From a virus, in IMG/VR virus record IMGVR_UViG_3300034198_010467, positions 1 to 34,262 of that record: DNA of 34,262 bases. One strand, given 5' to 3'. The position numbers and the translations under genes were made by a program. The notes under the pieces were generated by a model that was not told where the DNA came from, made no database searches, and was given only the letters and a program-made list of their open reading frames with translations. Below are positions 1,912 through 33,784 of the stretch, piece by piece; the first letter of the stretch is position 1; every line of letters starts with the position of its first letter.

Positions 1912-2163
1912 TTACCGACCTCCGTTATCTTTTGTCCTTTCATATCCGTTATCAATTAAAAATTTCGCCATCTTATCACCAATCATTTCGACTTGGGCCT
2001 CATCCAGATATGGCTGTAAATAATGCGTGTATTCATGAATCAAGGTATTAAGCAGTTCTTCGCCTTCCAATCTGCTATCAATCTCAATTTTATTTTCAGG
2101 GGTGTAGAAGTAACCCCTTGCATATCGTAGCTTTTTATATTCGACTTTAACTTTTTTCGGCAT
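1912..2163 (-). CDS. Small HExxH zinc metallopeptidase-like protein
   Basis: An 83-residue basic protein with the zinc-binding motif HEYTH (around residues 43-47) inside a helix, followed by LQP and a glutamate-containing helix that could supply the third ligand. This resembles a minimal SprT or ImmA-like zinc peptidase core found as small phage genes. The start ATG at 2163 follows a hairpin and a gap of about 100 bases after the endolysin, so it may be partly separated from the rest of the late operon. The substrate is unknown; a role in lysis or in removing a host protein is only a guess. Confidence 0.6.
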   Translation of the reverse strand: MPKKVKVEYKKLRYARGYFYTPENKIEIDSRLEGEELLNTLIHEYTHYLQPYLDEAQVEMIGDKMAKFLIDNGYERTKDNGGR

Positions 2164-2193
2164 GATGATTAATTTAATGTGTTAAATAACAAA

Positions 2194-2215
2194 CCCCGAT
2201 GTAGACACATCAGGG
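2194..2215. terminator. Hairpin after the endolysin gene
   Basis: CCCCGATGT (2194-2202) pairs with ACATCAGGG (2207-2215) around a 4-base loop, with one wobble or mismatch. On the minus strand it follows the endolysin stop by about 50 bases and is followed by the U-rich stretch TTTGTTATTT; on the plus strand it is followed by GTTCTTTTT. It can serve as a terminator in both directions. Confidence 0.55.
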
Positions 2216-2263
2216 CGTTCTTTTTAAACCTATACCTCAAAATTATATGCGGCTGCATTATTT

Positions 2264-2827
2264 TTATTTTAGTCCATTGAAAAAAGCCTGAGCATAACCG
2301 GCAATTAATACGTCCTTATCACGCCCGTTAATAATCTTCCTGGCGTTTATCCAATCGGTTTTTGTTAGGCTAAAATATTGTGATAATTTCCGGCCCGTAA
2401 ACCACCCTTGTATCATGCCTTCAAACATGATGTCGGTTGCAATTTGCAAATCACAAGCCAATTCAGGATTGTTCAGCAAATCAACTCCTAACTTTTTACC
2501 CGCTTTCTGATAATTCTCATACCATGTGAGCTGAACGAATCCACGTCCATAGTATAATTGGTCGGGCGTTGTGTACGGCTTTCTATCCATTCGGATTTTG
2601 CTACCATAAGGACACCCTTTGCCTTTGCCAAATTCCACGATTGGCTGCATGGTCTTTGCGGTTTCATGGAATACAGTAGCCAAACAATAAGCCAGACCTT
2701 TAATGCCTATTTCTGAATACTTTTGTTCGTATTCATCAATTATGGCATCAATGCCTTGTATCTGCTTTGCGGTATACTTACCGAATAGTGGCCTTACCGT
2801 ATCGAATAATCTTTTGCGGTCAATCAT
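2264..2827 (-). CDS. Endolysin, glycoside hydrolase family 19 (chitinase/lysozyme type)
   Basis: This 187-residue protein is expected to cut the glycan chains of peptidoglycan at the end of infection. It shows the GH19 core: the catalytic glutamate in FHE (Glu55), a second glutamate at 65 (QPIVE), and the strongly conserved block YYGRGFVQLTW at 92-102. There is no signal peptide, so it must reach the wall through a holin-made lesion. It is followed by a terminator hairpin and preceded by a gene block rich in membrane proteins (3200-3914), which fits a lysis cassette. The start at 2827 overlaps the stop of the upstream gene (ATGA type overlap). Confidence 0.9.
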   Translation of the reverse strand: MIDRKRLFDTVRPLFGKYTAKQIQGIDAIIDEYEQKYSEIGIKGLAYCLATVFHETAKTMQPIVEFGKGKGCPYGSKIRMDRKPYTTPDQLYYGRGFVQLTWYENYQKAGKKLGVDLLNNPELACDLQIATDIMFEGMIQGWFTGRKLSQYFSLTKTDWINARKIINGRDKDVLIAGYAQAFFNGLK

Positions 2828-3033
2828 AAAAATACTTTAGTTGTTGGGCCTCCGTCATCAATTCCGATATGCTCAAAAAAGATACCCGCTATGGTCAATT
2901 CATCTTTGAATAGAATCGCATCCGTTAATGAAGTCGATACGGTTACTGCTTTCGGATTGTTGCAATCATAGTGAACATGATAGCTGATTCCTAACCCTGA
3001 TAGTATGGTTGTAATGCGTTGGATTGTGGTCAT
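2824..3033 (-). CDS. Small protein of unknown function in the lysis region
   Basis: A 69-residue soluble protein with no family that I recognise. It has an even mix of short beta and helical stretches and a Gly/Asp-rich stretch near the C-terminus (GIDDGGPT). It is translationally coupled on both sides by four-base overlaps: its start lies in the stop of the 55-residue gene upstream (3030-3197), and its stop overlaps the endolysin start. The tight coupling suggests that it is made with the endolysin, but I infer no function. Confidence 0.6.
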   Translation of the reverse strand: MTTIQRITTILSGLGISYHVHYDCNNPKAVTVSTSLTDAILFKDELTIAGIFFEHIGIDDGGPTTKVFL

Positions 3034-3197
3034 CGTGCTTCGTTTTGCATATCATGGTCGGGAATTAACCGATCTAAAAATGTGAACAGACTCCAACTCT
3101 TTGCCGTCGGAACTAATCGGATAATGACTTCATAAACCGCAAATGCAGCTGTTGTAATTGGTTCCCAATGCTCTTGAATTAAATTGATGATGTGCAT
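3030..3197 (-). CDS. Small lysis-region protein (55 aa), easily missed by length cut-offs
   Basis: I read this gene from the sequence: ATG at 3197 and TGA at 3030-3032, giving 55 residues starting MHIINLIQEHWEPITTAAF. It overlaps the next gene by an ATGA junction and starts two bases after the stop of the membrane protein at 3200, so the operon continues without a gap. It has a weakly hydrophobic amphipathic helix (about residues 14-28) and a Trp/Phe-rich segment (SWSLFTFLDRLIP). Position next to the endolysin and membrane proteins suggests a lysis accessory such as a small holin or spanin-like peptide, but no family was recognised. Confidence 0.65.
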   Translation of the reverse strand: MHIINLIQEHWEPITTAAFAVYEVIIRLVPTAKSWSLFTFLDRLIPDHDMQNEAR

Positions 3198-3199
3198 AA

Positions 3200-3577
3200 T
3201 TATTTATTTTGTTTTGTGAAAAATCGTTTTATAGCTACTCCGATTGCGTCCACGATGGGGTCAACCCATAGAACGACGCGAAGGGATACTGGCTCAATGA
3301 TGATAGGCGTAAACCCACATATTACGGCTTGTTGATAGCCCGGCACCCCGGCATCGTTGACAATAAACCATGCAATTGTTCCGGCCATACCCGCAAGAAA
3401 AACCGCTACATAACATTGTGAAGGTTTAACCCGCTTTGCTTGGCGTTTAATCATATAAATCTTAGTCGTTACCCCAAACACTATTGATGCTATACCTAAT
3501 AGGTTTTTAACAATGAACCCGAAAAAGGTTTCTAAAAGTTCAACGAGATAATTATTATTTGGCGTCGGGTGTTCCAT
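3200..3577 (-). CDS. Membrane protein, candidate holin
   Basis: A 125-residue protein with two or three hydrophobic segments: about residues 13-41 (FFGFIVKNLLGIASIVFGV), 56-75 (CYVAVFLAGMAGTIAWFIV) and possibly 84-95. The C-terminus is basic (KRFFTKQNK), as in many holins that make holes in the inner membrane to release or trigger the endolysin. It overlaps the next membrane gene upstream (3555-3914) by 23 bases and is followed after two bases by a 55-residue gene. No named holin family was recognised, so the call rests on topology and position. Confidence 0.6.
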   Translation of the reverse strand: MEHPTPNNNYLVELLETFFGFIVKNLLGIASIVFGVTTKIYMIKRQAKRVKPSQCYVAVFLAGMAGTIAWFIVNDAGVPGYQQAVICGFTPIIIEPVSLRVVLWVDPIVDAIGVAIKRFFTKQNK

Positions 3578-3914
3578 TTTTAATATCTATATAAAGTTCA
3601 TATAAATTTCTTGCAGTAAAAGTTGCGATAATTATAGCGAAGATTTTTTCATTTGTTCCGAAAATGTAGGGGTCGCCAATGGTTTCGTCAAAGAGGTTGT
3701 TAAGACTACATAAGAAAACGTCACCTGATAGTATTCTGAGTAACGGGTCGGGCCAATACGCTACCAATAGAAGCCCTGTAATGACTGAAATAAAAAAACC
3801 CATGCAGTAAGTGAAGTAAAACCCGTCATGGTCATTGTATGCGTAAATAGATGAAGCCAAAGCCACTACCATTGCAGCGGCTTTAGCAACTCTATGTAAG
3901 TCCTTACGCTCCAT
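3555..3914 (-). CDS. Membrane protein, possible second holin or antiholin
   Basis: A 119-residue protein with hydrophobic segments near residues 8-26 (VAKAAAMVVALASSIYAY), 32-52 (FYFTYCMGFFISVITGLLLVA) and around 91-103 (IFAIIIATFTA). It starts in the last base of the stop codon of the upstream gene and overlaps the candidate holin downstream by 23 bases. Paired overlapping membrane genes beside an endolysin are typical of holin and antiholin pairs, but nothing here shows which is which. Confidence 0.55.
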   Translation of the reverse strand: MERKDLHRVAKAAAMVVALASSIYAYNDHDGFYFTYCMGFFISVITGLLLVAYWPDPLLRILSGDVFLCSLNNLFDETIGDPYIFGTNEKIFAIIIATFTARNLYELYIDIKNGTPDAK

Positions 3915-4225
3915 TATCTCGGACGGCGTGGTGGGCGTGTACCAATCAACTCATTTGCCACAATTGACATCGCAGGGCTTGTGATTGTTCCGTCGAAATC
4001 ATCATTCACGTTGATTTCGCATGAGGTATCAACTCTGCAATTATCGATTGAAATGATTTCCAAAACCGGATCATCCGATTCAAGTTGGCCTAAAGTTTCA
4101 GCGGTGACTACATCGTAATCGTTACCAGTTGAAATATAGGTTTTAAGATTGCCTGATTCATGTCGTGCATCAATCAGAATGATTGGGTCTCCCGCTTCGA
4201 GCTGAAGAAAGCTAATGTTTGCCAT
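3914..4225 (-). CDS. Unknown late protein, probably virion or tail accessory
   Basis: A 103-residue protein, acidic in the middle and ending in a Pro/Arg-rich tail (RPPRRPR). No family was recognised. It contains two cysteines (in a NCRVDTSCE stretch). It is the last soluble gene before the membrane protein genes and shares one base with the next start, so it is co-transcribed with the small structural genes upstream and is likely virion-associated. Confidence 0.5.
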   Translation of the reverse strand: MANISFLQLEAGDPIILIDARHESGNLKTYISTGNDYDVVTAETLGQLESDDPVLEIISIDNCRVDTSCEINVNDDFDGTITSPAMSIVANELIGTRPPRRPR

Positions 4226-4251
4226 TATATTTGTTTTTATTGGTGACGTGG

Positions 4252-4560
4252 TTATGATACGAGTAAAACTTTAATTGCAGTAGCCAAAGCAACCGTAGTA
4301 GCTTGGCCATGTGCCGTGCCGTCTAGTTTTATTACGTTAGTCATAGTCAGGTTTGGTGACTTTTCGCCGTCCTGAGAAACGACTTGAAAACGTGCCGCTG
4401 CCGCTGTTGTAGCCGGTATATACCTAATTGTAGGATTACGATAAAGCGCAAATGAATAATTTGCCGCCGGTGTACTTGTTCCCGTCCCGTCGCATTCGGT
4501 TATAGTTATTACCAAATCCGTATTTGTTGTTGTTTCTGAAGCAATGTTGTAAAATGCCAT
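4252..4560 (-). CDS. Unknown small beta-rich late protein
   Basis: A 102-residue protein rich in Thr, Ala and Ser with alternating beta-type residues, as in small phage head-decoration or tail-tip proteins. There is no recognisable domain. It lies in the run of small, evenly spaced structural-type genes between the neck genes and the lysis genes, with a 26-base gap before the next gene. A virion role is inferred from context only. Confidence 0.5.
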   Translation of the reverse strand: MAFYNIASETTTNTDLVITITECDGTGTSTPAANYSFALYRNPTIRYIPATTAAAARFQVVSQDGEKSPNLTMTNVIKLDGTAHGQATTVALATAIKVLLVS

Positions 4561-4582
4561 GATATTTATTTTTTAGTTGTGA

Positions 4583-5263
4583 TTAAAATGCCGATAATTC
4601 CATCCATTTGATTGTAAAACCCGCTACCCATACGCCCGTTGCCGGAACGGTTGCCCTGATGATTAAGCCTTCGTTTTGAACCAATACTATTGGATGGTCA
4701 CCGCTTGCAAGGTCGCACTTGTATAGCTGTGGTGTTGGTAGGTAAATGCTCCCGATAATGGGCGTAGCTGATGCAACCCCACCGCTTGAATGAGATGTAA
4801 TCATTCCGATGGGTTGGGAGTCAATGGTTTTTGTCCCTGCCGTTAATGGTGTTGTTGTGGTTATTCTTGCACTACCCATGAGGGAAGCGCCCATAGATGT
4901 TCTGAGTTGGTTTGTGTCACCCGTTAAGGTAATTGGAGTGCCGCCTGAGCCATCGCCAGACCAACCTCTGCAGATAGTTGCATTTAAGGTAATTGAACCC
5001 GCAGCAAAAGCGGTAAATGCTATCATGCCATTACATACGATTTCGGTGATGACACAAACACGTGTTGCATCCGTCCAACGGAGTTGCACATATTCACTAT
5101 TAGCCGCAGCACCCGCTGTGACTGACCCCGTTTGAACCGATACCGCATAGTGGCCTAATGTGCCGTAATCCTGTGGTTTTGCAATGTTATGTAAGCCTTT
5201 TGCGACTGCTTCGCCAATGTTTACGATTACGCTATCTGAAGCACCTGATTGAATGATTGCCAT
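4583..5263 (-). CDS. Putative virion structural protein (226 aa)
   Basis: A 226-residue protein very rich in Thr, Ala, Gly and Ser, with many short beta segments and a Trp-rich C-terminal sheet (residues about 206-222: GVWVAGFTIKWMEL). It has no signal peptide and no membrane segment. This composition is common in phage decoration, tail fibre or receptor-binding shells. It is three bases downstream of the next structural gene. A specific function cannot be assigned. Confidence 0.5.
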   Translation of the reverse strand: MAIIQSGASDSVIVNIGEAVAKGLHNIAKPQDYGTLGHYAVSVQTGSVTAGAAANSEYVQLRWTDATRVCVITEIVCNGMIAFTAFAAGSITLNATICRGWSGDGSGGTPITLTGDTNQLRTSMGASLMGSARITTTTPLTAGTKTIDSQPIGMITSHSSGGVASATPIIGSIYLPTPQLYKCDLASGDHPIVLVQNEGLIIRATVPATGVWVAGFTIKWMELSAF

Positions 5264-5266
5264 GTG

Positions 5267-5791
5267 TTATATTTTTATGTAATTGAATTTGAAATTGCCG
5301 ACTACCTTGCCAAGTTTTACGGTCTGGAAAAGTCGGTTTATGTCTGCTGTTGGATAAGTTCCTGTGTTTGGCCTTGATGTCAAAATACCCCCGTTTACGA
5401 ATCCGCCTGCTATGACGGGAGCCAAAACAAAACCTTCGTTTGCCTCCCAATTAACTTTGAAGTTACCCGTTCCCGCTGTGGCCTTGAGTAGCAACGTATC
5501 CATTTCGTTTTCATCAGCTAATGAACCCTTACCTGTTAATGATGTCATGGCCTGCCATATCATTATTTTCGTTGTTGATGTCACCCCCGCATCCGTTACG
5601 GTGAATGTTCCTCTGCTTAATGGAGTGCGACCGAAATCGACTTCTATGGTAGTCACAACCATACCTCCTGAATGCGCATCCACATACCCCTTCGAAGCCG
5701 GCCCGTCTGAGGTCTGGTCAAGGTCTGAGTATAACAATACCTCACGGCGTTTGTTCTCAATTAGGCTATTATCATCAATATAGAATGGCAT
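5267..5791 (-). CDS. Putative virion structural protein (174 aa), fibre-like C-terminal domain
   Basis: A 174-residue protein. The N-terminal 35 residues include SDGPASKGYVDAHSGG, a motif type seen in phage fibre or neck-appendage proteins just before a beta domain (compare the common ASKGYVD segment). The rest is a compact beta-rich domain with a hydrophobic C-terminus (FKFNYIKI). It fits a short tail or head fibre subunit. It sits three bases from its neighbours on either side. Confidence 0.5.
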   Translation of the reverse strand: MPFYIDDNSLIENKRREVLLYSDLDQTSDGPASKGYVDAHSGGMVVTTIEVDFGRTPLSRGTFTVTDAGVTSTTKIMIWQAMTSLTGKGSLADENEMDTLLLKATAGTGNFKVNWEANEGFVLAPVIAGGFVNGGILTSRPNTGTYPTADINRLFQTVKLGKVVGNFKFNYIKI

Positions 5792-29196: not shown

Positions 29197-29592
29197 TTAC
29201 GATTGCATCATTAATTTAGGATACGGCCTGTAAAGCAATGCAACGCCGGGAAATGGTGGTGTGATTCCTTTAGCGGGTTCAACAGGCGGGTGAAGTTCAT
29301 CCATCAATTTGAAGTAAATCAGGCCGTATCTGCGTTTTAAATATGGGTCGGTATCAATCATATCATTGATGTGATTAACGCTATGTAATATCGTTGTATG
29401 GTCGCGTCCTTCAAGTGTTTCGCCAATAGTAAGCAATGGTGCGCCTGTTAGCTTTCTTGCTAATTTGCAATAGATTTGCCTTGCTTCGACATATTCGCGT
29501 TTCCTTGATTTGGATTGGATTTGCGTAACGGTTACGCCCCATTCTTCGGCCACCGCATTAAGTATGTATTCAAGTTTCTTTTCGTTTGTCAT
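29197..29592 (-). CDS. Stand-alone DnaA domain IV-like DNA-binding protein
   Basis: A 131-residue protein matching only the C-terminal DNA-binding domain of DnaA: helix-turn-helix region, then the signature GRDHTTILHSV (62-72), in which Arg63, Asp64, His65 and Thr66-67 correspond to DnaA residues that contact the DnaA box. There is no AAA+ ATPase domain, so it may be an origin-binding phage factor that uses or disrupts host DnaA sites. It lies in the replication block, between SSB-like and unknown genes, with a 74-base gap downstream containing no clear signal. Confidence 0.85.
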   Translation of the reverse strand: MTNEKKLEYILNAVAEEWGVTVTQIQSKSRKREYVEARQIYCKLARKLTGAPLLTIGETLEGRDHTTILHSVNHINDMIDTDPYLKRRYGLIYFKLMDELHPPVEPAKGITPPFPGVALLYRPYPKLMMQS

Positions 29593-32301: not shown

Positions 32302-32613
32302 TTATCTATCCTCATAATCAGTCCGCTGTTGGTCATCATCAAGGCTGTTATCGTTTGCAACGTGCCATTCATAATCCCAATCAATTGAATCAATTATATC
32401 TCTGAATGCCTCGTCATTGACTTCGGCAAGGATATAGGATAAGTCGCCGACAAATTTTCGGTCAATATACAAATCAATGGCGAAATGTTCATGCGATAGG
32501 TCGTATGCTTCGCGTGGGCTGCTTACGTTGCAACTAATTACGATTTCCTGTAATTGGTTTTTACCGCCTTGTTTAAGTGGGCGAAACTTTTGGAATGATG
32601 TTTGAATTCTCAT
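32302..32613 (-). CDS. Early protein of unknown function (103 aa)
   Basis: A 103-residue acidic protein, with a basic start (MRIQTSFQKFRPLKQGGKNQ) and an acidic end (DNSLDDDQQRTDYED). It is four-base overlapped with the upstream gene (ATGA), so the two are coupled. No family was recognised; the acidic end may mimic nucleic acid, an inference only. Confidence 0.5.
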   Translation of the reverse strand: MRIQTSFQKFRPLKQGGKNQLQEIVISCNVSSPREAYDLSHEHFAIDLYIDRKFVGDLSYILAEVNDEAFRDIIDSIDWDYEWHVANDNSLDDDQQRTDYEDR

Positions 32614-32900
32614 GTTATTTGGGTTTTAGAAATTGATTGATTAGAAAAAGTTTGAGTGAGCCACTCTATCACTTCGCCTTCGATTTGAGATTCTATTAAA
32701 TCGTAAAGAGCGTCGTATCTGTCTTGCCCATCCAAATCATTGGCCGCGTCATAGCCGGGCATGAAGTTAGTAGTTGCTGTGAATGATTCTGATTCACCTT
32801 CGCACTCTAATTCGACCTTTATTTTTTTGTGGCCATAGCCGGATGGCAAAGAGTCTGCAAATCTAACTGATACTTGTTTGTCTTGACATTGGAAGTTCAT
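32610..32900 (-). CDS. Early protein of unknown function (96 aa)
   Basis: A 96-residue acidic protein with beta-rich N-terminal half (VSVRFADSLPSGYGHKKI) and helical C-terminal half (LIESQIEGEVIEWL). It overlaps the next gene. No known family was recognised. Confidence 0.5.
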   Translation of the reverse strand: MNFQCQDKQVSVRFADSLPSGYGHKKIKVELECEGESESFTATTNFMPGYDAANDLDGQDRYDALYDLIESQIEGEVIEWLTQTFSNQSISKTQIT

Positions 32901-32924: not shown

Positions 32925-33452
32925 TTAGATTGATTGTAATTGTGCGTAGGCTTTAACTAACTTTTTTTCGCCATGTAATTCAAACAACACGGTTATGGTC
33001 TTGTCATCTTCGCTAACCTTAACACCCTTGCCAAATCGTGCGTGCATAACGTCAGCAGATAAGCCATTGAATGCAGCTACATTGGTGGACTTAACTTCTT
33101 CAACTTGTTTTTTTGATTCTTTTTTCGCTTGACGTTTAGCAGATTTATGAGCGCGGTCGGCTTCACGCTCCATATGTAATTCATTGTAGAAGTCGCTTAC
33201 AACATTAACGAAGTCTACGTTTTTTTCTAATTCAAAAGCGATAACCCATAATTGTTTCGCGCTGAATCGGTCAGCAGTTGAAGCGATCTTGTAAGCTAAT
33301 GTATCTTGATTAAGAGCAGACATAACTTCCATACGCTTGCTGTCTGCTAATTGTTGATGACTTGCATCAATTACGTTACCAATTGAGGATATGGTAACAC
33401 TTGATGGGTTAAGTCCTTGAATGTATTTGTAAATGTTTGATACCGTGTTCAT
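32925..33452 (-). CDS. First early gene: protein with UvrD/PcrA-like C-terminal Tudor domain
   Basis: I start at the ATG at 33452 (175 residues); an upstream TTG at 33476 overlaps the promoter. The N-terminal 100 residues are helical, followed by a Lys/Glu-rich linker (residues 100-125). The last 45 residues (VMHARFGKG at 135-143, then TVLFELHGEKKLVKAYAQL) match the Tudor-like domain at the C-terminus of UvrD and PcrA, where it contacts RNA polymerase. As the first early gene, it could bind host RNA polymerase or repair helicase partners. The match is by sequence pattern only. Confidence 0.6.
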   Translation of the reverse strand: MNTVSNIYKYIQGLNPSSVTISSIGNVIDASHQQLADSKRMEVMSALNQDTLAYKIASTADRFSAKQLWVIAFELEKNVDFVNVVSDFYNELHMEREADRAHKSAKRQAKKESKKQVEEVKSTNVAAFNGLSADVMHARFGKGVKVSEDDKTITVLFELHGEKKLVKAYAQLQSI

Positions 33453-33473
33453 TGCTTTATCGTTTTGTTGACA

Positions 33474-33481
33474 CAAAGATA
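33474..33481 (-). promoter_or_regulatory. Early leftward promoter -7 box
   Basis: Minus-strand TATCTTTG (33481-33474), about 22 bases before the 33452 start. No TTTG lies 17-23 bases upstream, so the promoter may need an activator. Half-sites of the GTGTATAT type occupy that place. Confidence 0.55.
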
Positions 33482-33501
33482 TATCATATACACATACACC
33501 C
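33479..33501 (-). promoter_or_regulatory. Operator-like half-sites at the early leftward promoter
   Basis: Read on the minus strand, GTGTATG and GTGTATATG follow each other, ending in a near palindrome TATATCATATA (33480-33490). They overlap or adjoin the -7 box and could bind the regulator encoded at 33587. Confidence 0.45.
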
Positions 33502-33542
33502 GCTACCTATATTGTTATCGAATTGTTAAATATATTTAATAG

Positions 33543-33570
33543 GGTGTATATTGAATATTTGGTGTATATT
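33543..33570 (+). promoter_or_regulatory. Direct repeat operator at the rightward promoter
   Basis: GGTGTATATT occurs twice, at 33543-33552 and 33561-33570, 18 bases apart. The second copy overlaps the -7 box at 33565-33572. This is a likely autoregulation site. Confidence 0.55.
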
Positions 33571-33572
33571 TG
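33565..33572 (+). promoter_or_regulatory. Rightward regulator promoter -7 box
   Basis: TATATTTG, a good Bacteroidota -7 box, 14 bases before the 33587 ATG. No TTTG or TTG is at the usual -33 place; the first GGTGTATATT repeat covers that region. Confidence 0.6.
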
Positions 33573-33586
33573 CAGAAACGAATAGT

Positions 33587-33784
33587 ATGCAAGAAACACA
33601 ACGAAAAAATATCGACATCCCTTACCCCGTATTAGAAGCGCTTGAGATTATCGGATTGAAAGATAAGCCAAACGGGAATAAGTACCCAAAACACATCATT
33701 GAGGACCTGTGTATAGATTACACGATTAATGCAGGCTATGTGAAGCGTGATAAGGCCGGTAATTTGGTTAGGACGAATAAATAA
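33587..33784 (+). CDS. Small putative DNA-binding regulator (ribbon-helix-helix-like)
   Basis: A 65-residue protein; I start at the ATG at 33587, as a TTG at 33551 would put the promoter inside the gene. A strand (RKNIDIPY) followed by two helices (PVLEALEIIG and YPKHIIEDLCIDYTIN) is the layout of ribbon-helix-helix repressors, though the loop is long. It lies at the divergent switch with repeats in its promoter, so it is the best repressor candidate. It is followed after six bases by a second small plus-strand gene. Confidence 0.45.
   Translation: MQETQRKNIDIPYPVLEALEIIGLKDKPNGNKYPKHIIEDLCIDYTINAGYVKRDKAGNLVRTNK

Follow-up and report, generated by a model that had tools for sequence, protein, structure and literature searches.

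Genomic context of the gene

The window analysed here is an entire IMG/VR virus record of 34,262 bases. On its minus strand, an open reading frame for 175 amino acids (32925-33452) runs from an ATG at 33452 to a stop codon at 32925-32927, and its limits, strand and length agree with the original prediction. This frame encodes a two-domain protein (Table 1) and leads a leftward operon, in which it is followed by small genes and then by genes for an exonuclease (phrog_5715), a DnaA-type HTH protein (PF08299), a DUF3127 protein and a Prim-Pol/DUF3987 primase-helicase; the genes for terminase and tape measure come farther along. The product had been called the first early protein, a description that its position supports, as the gene stands directly after a conserved promoter-like element and heads the operon. 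A 131-aa protein at 29197-29592 lacks the AAA+ part of DnaA and consists of the C-terminal DNA-binding domain (PF08299, E=1.1e-22), and its gene adjoins the DUF3127 and Prim-Pol/DUF3987 genes. PADLOC gave no match.

Table 1. Features of the two-domain gene and its surroundings in the window
Feature	Position	Strand	Basis
Gene of the two-domain protein (P0001)	32925..33452	-	ORF and translation; homologue in L001 93% identical, dN/dS 0.185
N-terminal phage/prophage domain, residues 1-75; helices and hairpin 18-28; signature KQLWVIAFEL	33228..33452	-	homologues with other C-termini; AlphaFold
Long charged helix, residues 79-128, joining the two domains	33069..33218	-	AlphaFold model mc7cd07e8d041
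UvrD/PcrA-type C-terminal Tudor domain, residues 131-175	32928..33062	-	HMM with shuffle control; alignment A6; Foldseek to 7egt_B/7egs_B/6yi2
H137 codon, equivalent to G. stearothermophilus PcrA H681 (needed for RNAP binding)	33042..33044	-	alignment A6; PMC5397179 mutants
F140 codon, equivalent to PcrA W684 / E. coli UvrD F681 (aromatic contact)	33033..33035	-	alignment A6; PMC5397179, PMC7585439
K163 codon, equivalent to PcrA K712 (needed for RNAP binding)	32964..32966	-	alignment A6; PMC5397179
L165 codon, equivalent to PcrA L714	32958..32960	-	alignment A6; PMC5397179
Conserved promoter-like element AACAATATAGGTAGCGGGTGTATGTGTATATGATATATCTTTG	33474..33516	-	0 matches in 100 window shuffles; also in 8 IMG/VR contigs
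Downstream genes bordering the variable slot: 96 aa (32610-32900) and core 103 aa (32302-32613)	32302..32900	-	contig comparison

The promoter-like element comprises 43 bases and ends 22 bases before the ATG of the Tudor gene. Its last eight bases, TATCTTTG (33474-33481), fit the -7 box consensus of Bacteroidota, TAnnTTTG (PMC9723704), and no matching -33 box was seen at the element. The host of the phage probably belongs to the Bacteroidota, judging from this promoter box, from a relative of the 159-aa gene in a Flavobacterium MAG and from the likeness of the Tudor domain to Bacteroidota UvrD. The divergent intergenic region of the window (33470-33580) also contains GTGTATAT(T)-type repeats, possible operator sites.

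The Tudor gene occupies a variable first-gene slot

The same element was found in eight further IMG/VR contigs, in which the neighbouring genes are close homologues. What follows it differs between contigs. Behind the element lies the Tudor gene in the window; a 75-aa gene, a 76-aa gene, a second copy of the element and then the Tudor-gene homologue in L063/L001; a 65-aa gene in L148/L005; an 85-aa gene in L145/L006; a 50-aa gene in L008; and a 58-aa gene in L150. In L146, L147 and L149 it is directly followed by the core 103-aa gene or its start, L149 being cut off just after the start. The Tudor gene is present in two of the nine related contigs, the other seven carrying another small gene or none. 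The 103-aa gene lies downstream of the element in eight of the nine, the exception being L149, which ends too soon, and the 96-aa gene is found only in the window, L001/L063 and L006/L145. The Tudor gene is an accessory cassette, probably early, in a hypervariable first-gene slot.

Comparison of the window with L001 gave a dS of 0.21 and a dN/dS of 0.185 for the Tudor gene, which is under purifying selection; the Tudor part alone gave a dN/dS of 0.17, on five differences only. The dS of the neighbouring 103-aa gene is 0.99. The lower value of the Tudor gene is as cassette exchange would give, on the small basis of two genes in one phage pair. In L001, the element is duplicated (2296-2410 and 2993-3110; window counterpart 33453-33590), with a two-gene cassette between the copies, and recombination between element copies is a possible route by which cassettes are added. 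Divergent from the element, L006 (3569-5954) and L008 (2571-4935) carry methyltransferase-like genes of 331-337 aa and helicase-like genes of 455 aa, both named by eye; the window has neither.

The C-terminal domain is of the UvrD/PcrA Tudor type

The original prediction recognised a UvrD/PcrA-type Tudor motif without any helicase. We found the motif in residues 135-173, and the frame indeed holds no helicase: the protein has only 175 residues, no SF1 helicase core stands ahead of the tail, and UvrD models match it only by their C-terminal end. The Pfam model PF21196 (PcrA_UvrD_tudor) matched residues 135-170 of the whole protein at 14.9 bits (E=0.025) and the C-terminal fragment at 18.1 bits (E=0.0024). 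Both scores lie below the curated cut-off of 23.9 bits, and we therefore file the protein as UvrD-tail-like and not as a formal member of PF21196. NCBIfam UvrD models matched residues 80-174 (E=5.7e-6 and 1.2e-5), and the best matches of a PDB sequence search were three UvrD C-terminal domains (E=0.005 to 0.08).

An HMM search against the UvrD C-terminal domain, proposed as a check of the motif, was performed with a custom profile built from 31 UvrD C-termini of Bacteroidota genomes. The phage protein scored 27.9 bits, against 10.2 bits for the best of 20,000 shuffles of its C-terminus, with an E-value of 1.7e-6 over the 13,952 ORFs from the loci then collected. Among these ORFs, the other matches beyond UvrD loci were only the L001 homologue, a UvrD-like helicase on a doubtful record and a Flavobacterium protein, and within the whole virus record the 175-aa protein is the sole Tudor match. 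In alignment A6, the ten invariant columns (V, H, F, G, G, F, G, K, A, L) are all kept in the phage protein, and the identity of its Tudor domain to Bacteroidota UvrD tails is 31-44%. The Tudor family of CarD and the Mfd RID gave no Pfam match at E<=10, a search in which HMMER filters drop most weak matches. Weak Pfam matches to ZMYND8_CC, eIF3_N and PSP1 were set aside as coiled-coil or low-score. The Tudor domain probably descends from a UvrD/PcrA helicase tail and is not a product of convergence.

Structure prediction, likewise proposed as a check, gave a Tudor/SH3-like fold and not the unlike structure that would have spoken against the assignment. With two sequences only, AlphaFold reached a pLDDT of 47 and the barrel was absent; with the 57 sequences of alignment A5, consisting of N-domain homologues and UvrD tails, the mean pLDDT was 88 (model mc7cd07e8d041). 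MAFFT put UvrD tails onto the N-domain in several alignments, among them A4, which was left out of the conclusions, and only the A5 set aligned both parts. In the model, residues 1-75 form helices and a hairpin, residues 79-128 one helix and residues 135-174 a beta barrel, with predicted strands at 135-137, 141-148, 152-157 and 161-166. The best PDB match in Foldseek was 7egt_B, the T. thermophilus UvrD tail bound to UvrB (TM 0.87 when normalised by target length, rmsd 1.1), followed by 7egs_B (the E. coli UvrD tail bound to the RNAP lobe), 6yi2 and 9dqs. No PDB match reached E<=0.001, and the TM by query length was only 0.24, because the match spans one domain. Since A5 included UvrD tails, the predicted barrel is not independent of the sequence match.

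Polymerase-contact residues are kept

In G. stearothermophilus PcrA, mutation of H681, W684, K712 or L714 lowered polymerase binding (PMC5397179). All four positions are kept in the phage protein, as H137, F140, K163 and L165. The cage of E. coli UvrD is formed by H678, F681, W709 and Y714 (PMC7585439); its counterparts by eye are H137, F140, K164 and Y169, so that three of the four are kept and the aromatic W709 is replaced by lysine. The loop that leads into the third strand has four residues fewer than its counterpart in Bacteroidota UvrD and is equal in length to that of T. thermophilus UvrD, whose CTD is bound to UvrB in 7egt.

Compared with the UvrD/PcrA C-terminal Tudor domain (PF21196; PDB 5DMA, 6YI2, 7EGS, 7EGT, 9DQS), the phage domain is alike in sequence pattern, predicted fold, the four mutated RNAP-contact residues and its C-terminal position behind a long linker. 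It differs in that the protein has no helicase, is joined to a phage domain, scores below the Pfam cut-off and has a lysine for a cage aromatic. The Mfd RID and CarD are likewise Tudor folds that bind the beta subunit of RNAP, but they bind beta1, a site other than that of PcrA (PMC8318588, PMC5397179), and show no sequence match to the phage protein.

The N-terminal domain belongs to a phage family with other C-termini

Relatives of the N-terminal domain were found through a DNA pattern for KQLWVIxxEL. Nine phage and prophage proteins match residues 1 to ~120 (phmmer E ~1e-13 to 1e-25, best 2e-25), and the homologous domain has an invariant KQLWVIA (alignment A3). Their C-termini consist of different, helical sequence: the KQLWVIA proteins of L052, L053, L057, L059, L061 and L062 and BFVD A0A8S5RS51 have an N-terminal domain homologous to that of the phage protein, but end in a helical segment ...EFxSKKxTxxSxxxFLAI where the latter ends in the Tudor domain. 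Among the relatives found, only this protein and its L001 homologue carry a Tudor tail on the KQLWVIA domain. As homologues of the N-domain carry other C-termini, the Tudor domain marks a fusion or swap. In the more distant viral contigs L077-L103 (at ~4500-5330 in most), the KQLWVIA domain lies behind another N-terminal region, MTTLNYSAPKNELR..., which shows that the domain is modular.

The domain is carried by phages and prophages that, so far as could be judged, belong mostly to Bacteroidota, and it is almost absent from 395 sampled Bacteroidota-phylum genomes, with one weak match. Neither Pfam nor PHROG gave a meaningful match for the family, and the only clear structural match of the N-domain is the uncharacterised phage protein BFVD A0A8S5RS51. 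The hairpin at residues 18-28 was considered as a TGE helicase-interaction motif and by eye does not fit; a loosened form of this motif was found in no ORF of the window or L001.

Candidate host partners

The PcrA tail binds a TGE-tipped hairpin of RpoB with the motif [VIL]DxxTGE[VIL][VILT] (PMC8318588). We identified [IVF]DxxTGE[IV] in 9/9 Bacteroidota RpoB sequences, five of them with the strict published motif, whereas a recognisable TGE/SGE hairpin was present in only 2/10 Bacteroidota UvrB sequences, the others being judged by motif and not by structure. This indicates that RNA polymerase is a likelier target than UvrB. A Tudor match was obtained in 197 of 198 Bacteroidota-phylum genomes, almost always in a frame of ~730-850 aa, the size expected for UvrD, and thus an endogenous user is there to displace.

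A precedent bears on what such binding may do. As a free domain, the PcrA CTD wins over PcrA in the competition for polymerase, and it acts as a dominant negative in B. subtilis, where its overexpression raises R-loops unless it carries K727A (PMC8318588). The phage counterpart is also helicase-free; the free CTD, however, is an artificial construct, whereas the phage Tudor domain is natural and fused to another domain. The CTD has other partners as well: UvrB and RNAP compete for one surface of PcrA, and the UvrD CTD also binds UvrB (both PMC8318588) and, weakly, DNA (PMC7585439). These partners and the generic nature of the Tudor fold count against a polymerase target. Moreover, in some assays neither repair nor replication-transcription conflicts were much affected when the UvrD/PcrA CTD was deleted (PMC8318588), so that blocking this contact may matter little.

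Other carriers of the Tudor domain

No close whole-protein relatives were found in INPHARED, PLSDB or GTDB genome contigs, except the tail of a UvrD-like helicase on a faecal 'phage' contig of 4.4 kb, which was rejected as a phage relative because the genes look bacterial and the contig is probably bacterial. In MT839327.1 (L003, 'Bacteriophage sp.'), a UvrD-like helicase with a Tudor tail (2032-4251) lies beside cellular-looking genes, and this record is probably a bacterial contig. A tblastn search of INPHARED with UvrD tails, insensitive at 54 aa, matched short unannotated faecal records and unannotated Salmonella, E. coli and S. aureus phage records; further matches fell in Salmonella genome contigs, on a feature annotated as DNA helicase II. 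When viral sequences were scanned with a Tudor alignment of the Flavobacteria type, only the known homologue was recovered. At 1057-1578 of L067, a Flavobacterium MAG, a 173-aa protein opens with a weak UvrD-like Tudor motif (GSRIKHAKFGIGVVT...) and is a possible cellular non-helicase Tudor protein.

A UvrD-type Tudor domain on a non-helicase is likewise seen in M. tuberculosis DinX, a Y-family polymerase with a DUF3553/UvrD-like Tudor tail (PMC6511836). DinX is a host DNA polymerase, unlike the small phage early protein, which has no match to DUF3553 (PF12073) at E<=10, again with most weak matches dropped by HMMER filters. No phage protein with a UvrD-type Tudor domain was found described in the open literature searched, and the searches of databases for further phage examples had low sensitivity. 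Neither the Tudor domain nor its fold nor the notion of phage proteins that bind polymerase is new; what goes beyond the original prediction is the phage domain at the N-terminus, the recognition of the gene as a cassette and the alternative of UvrB as target.

Interpretation

We propose, with a probability of roughly 0.45, that the protein occupies the UvrD site on host RNA polymerase early and displaces UvrD, and that the N-domain may add a second action. The Tudor domain would bind where host UvrD does, on the TGE-tipped hairpin of the polymerase beta subunit, and early occupation of this site would displace UvrD from transcription complexes. UvrD-dependent polymerase backtracking, R-loop removal or repair coupling would then be reduced during phage takeover, and the N-domain may also act at the polymerase. 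The domain identity claimed at the outset stands on sequence, fold and contact residues; the further suggestion, that the protein jams or takes over the UvrD-polymerase contact, is plausible in view of the RpoB hairpin and the free-tail precedent in B. subtilis (PMC8318588). It is possible, if rather doubtful, that the protein is a natural phage dominant negative of UvrD, in which a captured tail joined to a phage domain and carried on an early accessory cassette would shut off UvrD-linked backtracking, R-loop removal and repair coupling.

Alternatively, the Tudor domain may be an adaptor that docks on host RNA polymerase to bring the N-domain, which would redirect or tune transcription, the displacement of UvrD being incidental. 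Since the N-domain represents a conserved family of its own, with different C-termini elsewhere, the Tudor domain resembles a targeting module on an existing effector, and a 50-residue helix separates the two. TraR and phage lambda Orf73 are DksA-like and have a fold different from that of the phage Tudor protein. They are nevertheless examples of small mobile-element proteins that are related to a host polymerase-binding factor and reprogramme host polymerase (PMC9239242). However, the N-domain family has no match that suggests a role in transcription, its only clear structural match being uncharacterised, and a gene present in 2/9 contigs is not needed for the phage's own transcription. We consider this reading unlikely.

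It is more improbable that the Tudor domain has been repurposed to bind DNA, a phage protein or a defence protein and has lost the contact to RNA polymerase or repair. The first gene of an early operon is often one for host takeover or anti-defence, and the slot in question is hypervariable; the rest of the Tudor domain has diverged to 31-49% identity, and the UvrD CTD has weak affinity for DNA (PMC7585439). Against this, it is precisely the polymerase-contact residues H, F, K and L that are kept, in a domain under purifying selection (dN/dS 0.17, with the five differences mentioned above). Quite improbable, too, is a Tudor domain that targets UvrB or another TGE-hairpin protein and hampers excision repair instead of transcription: the best structural match is a UvrD tail bound to UvrB, and UvrB and RNAP are rivals for one PcrA surface (PMC8318588), but the hairpin is recognisable in few Bacteroidota UvrB and in all the RpoB sequences. 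Finally, chance resemblance of an unrelated small beta domain, to which the sub-threshold Pfam score might point, is refuted to a practical level and hardly credible, since none of the 20,000 shuffles approached the score of the phage protein and independent NCBIfam, PDB sequence and fold matches all name UvrD.

If UvrD is indeed displaced from host RNA polymerase, phages attack or exploit the contact between the two, for which transcription-coupled repair, R-loop removal and conflict relief are still under debate as cellular purposes. A natural inhibitor would show that this contact matters during infection, and the protein would provide a compact tool for breaking it with the helicase untouched. 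The hypervariable first-gene slot in this Bacteroidota phage group is also a place to seek other host-takeover or counter-defence proteins.
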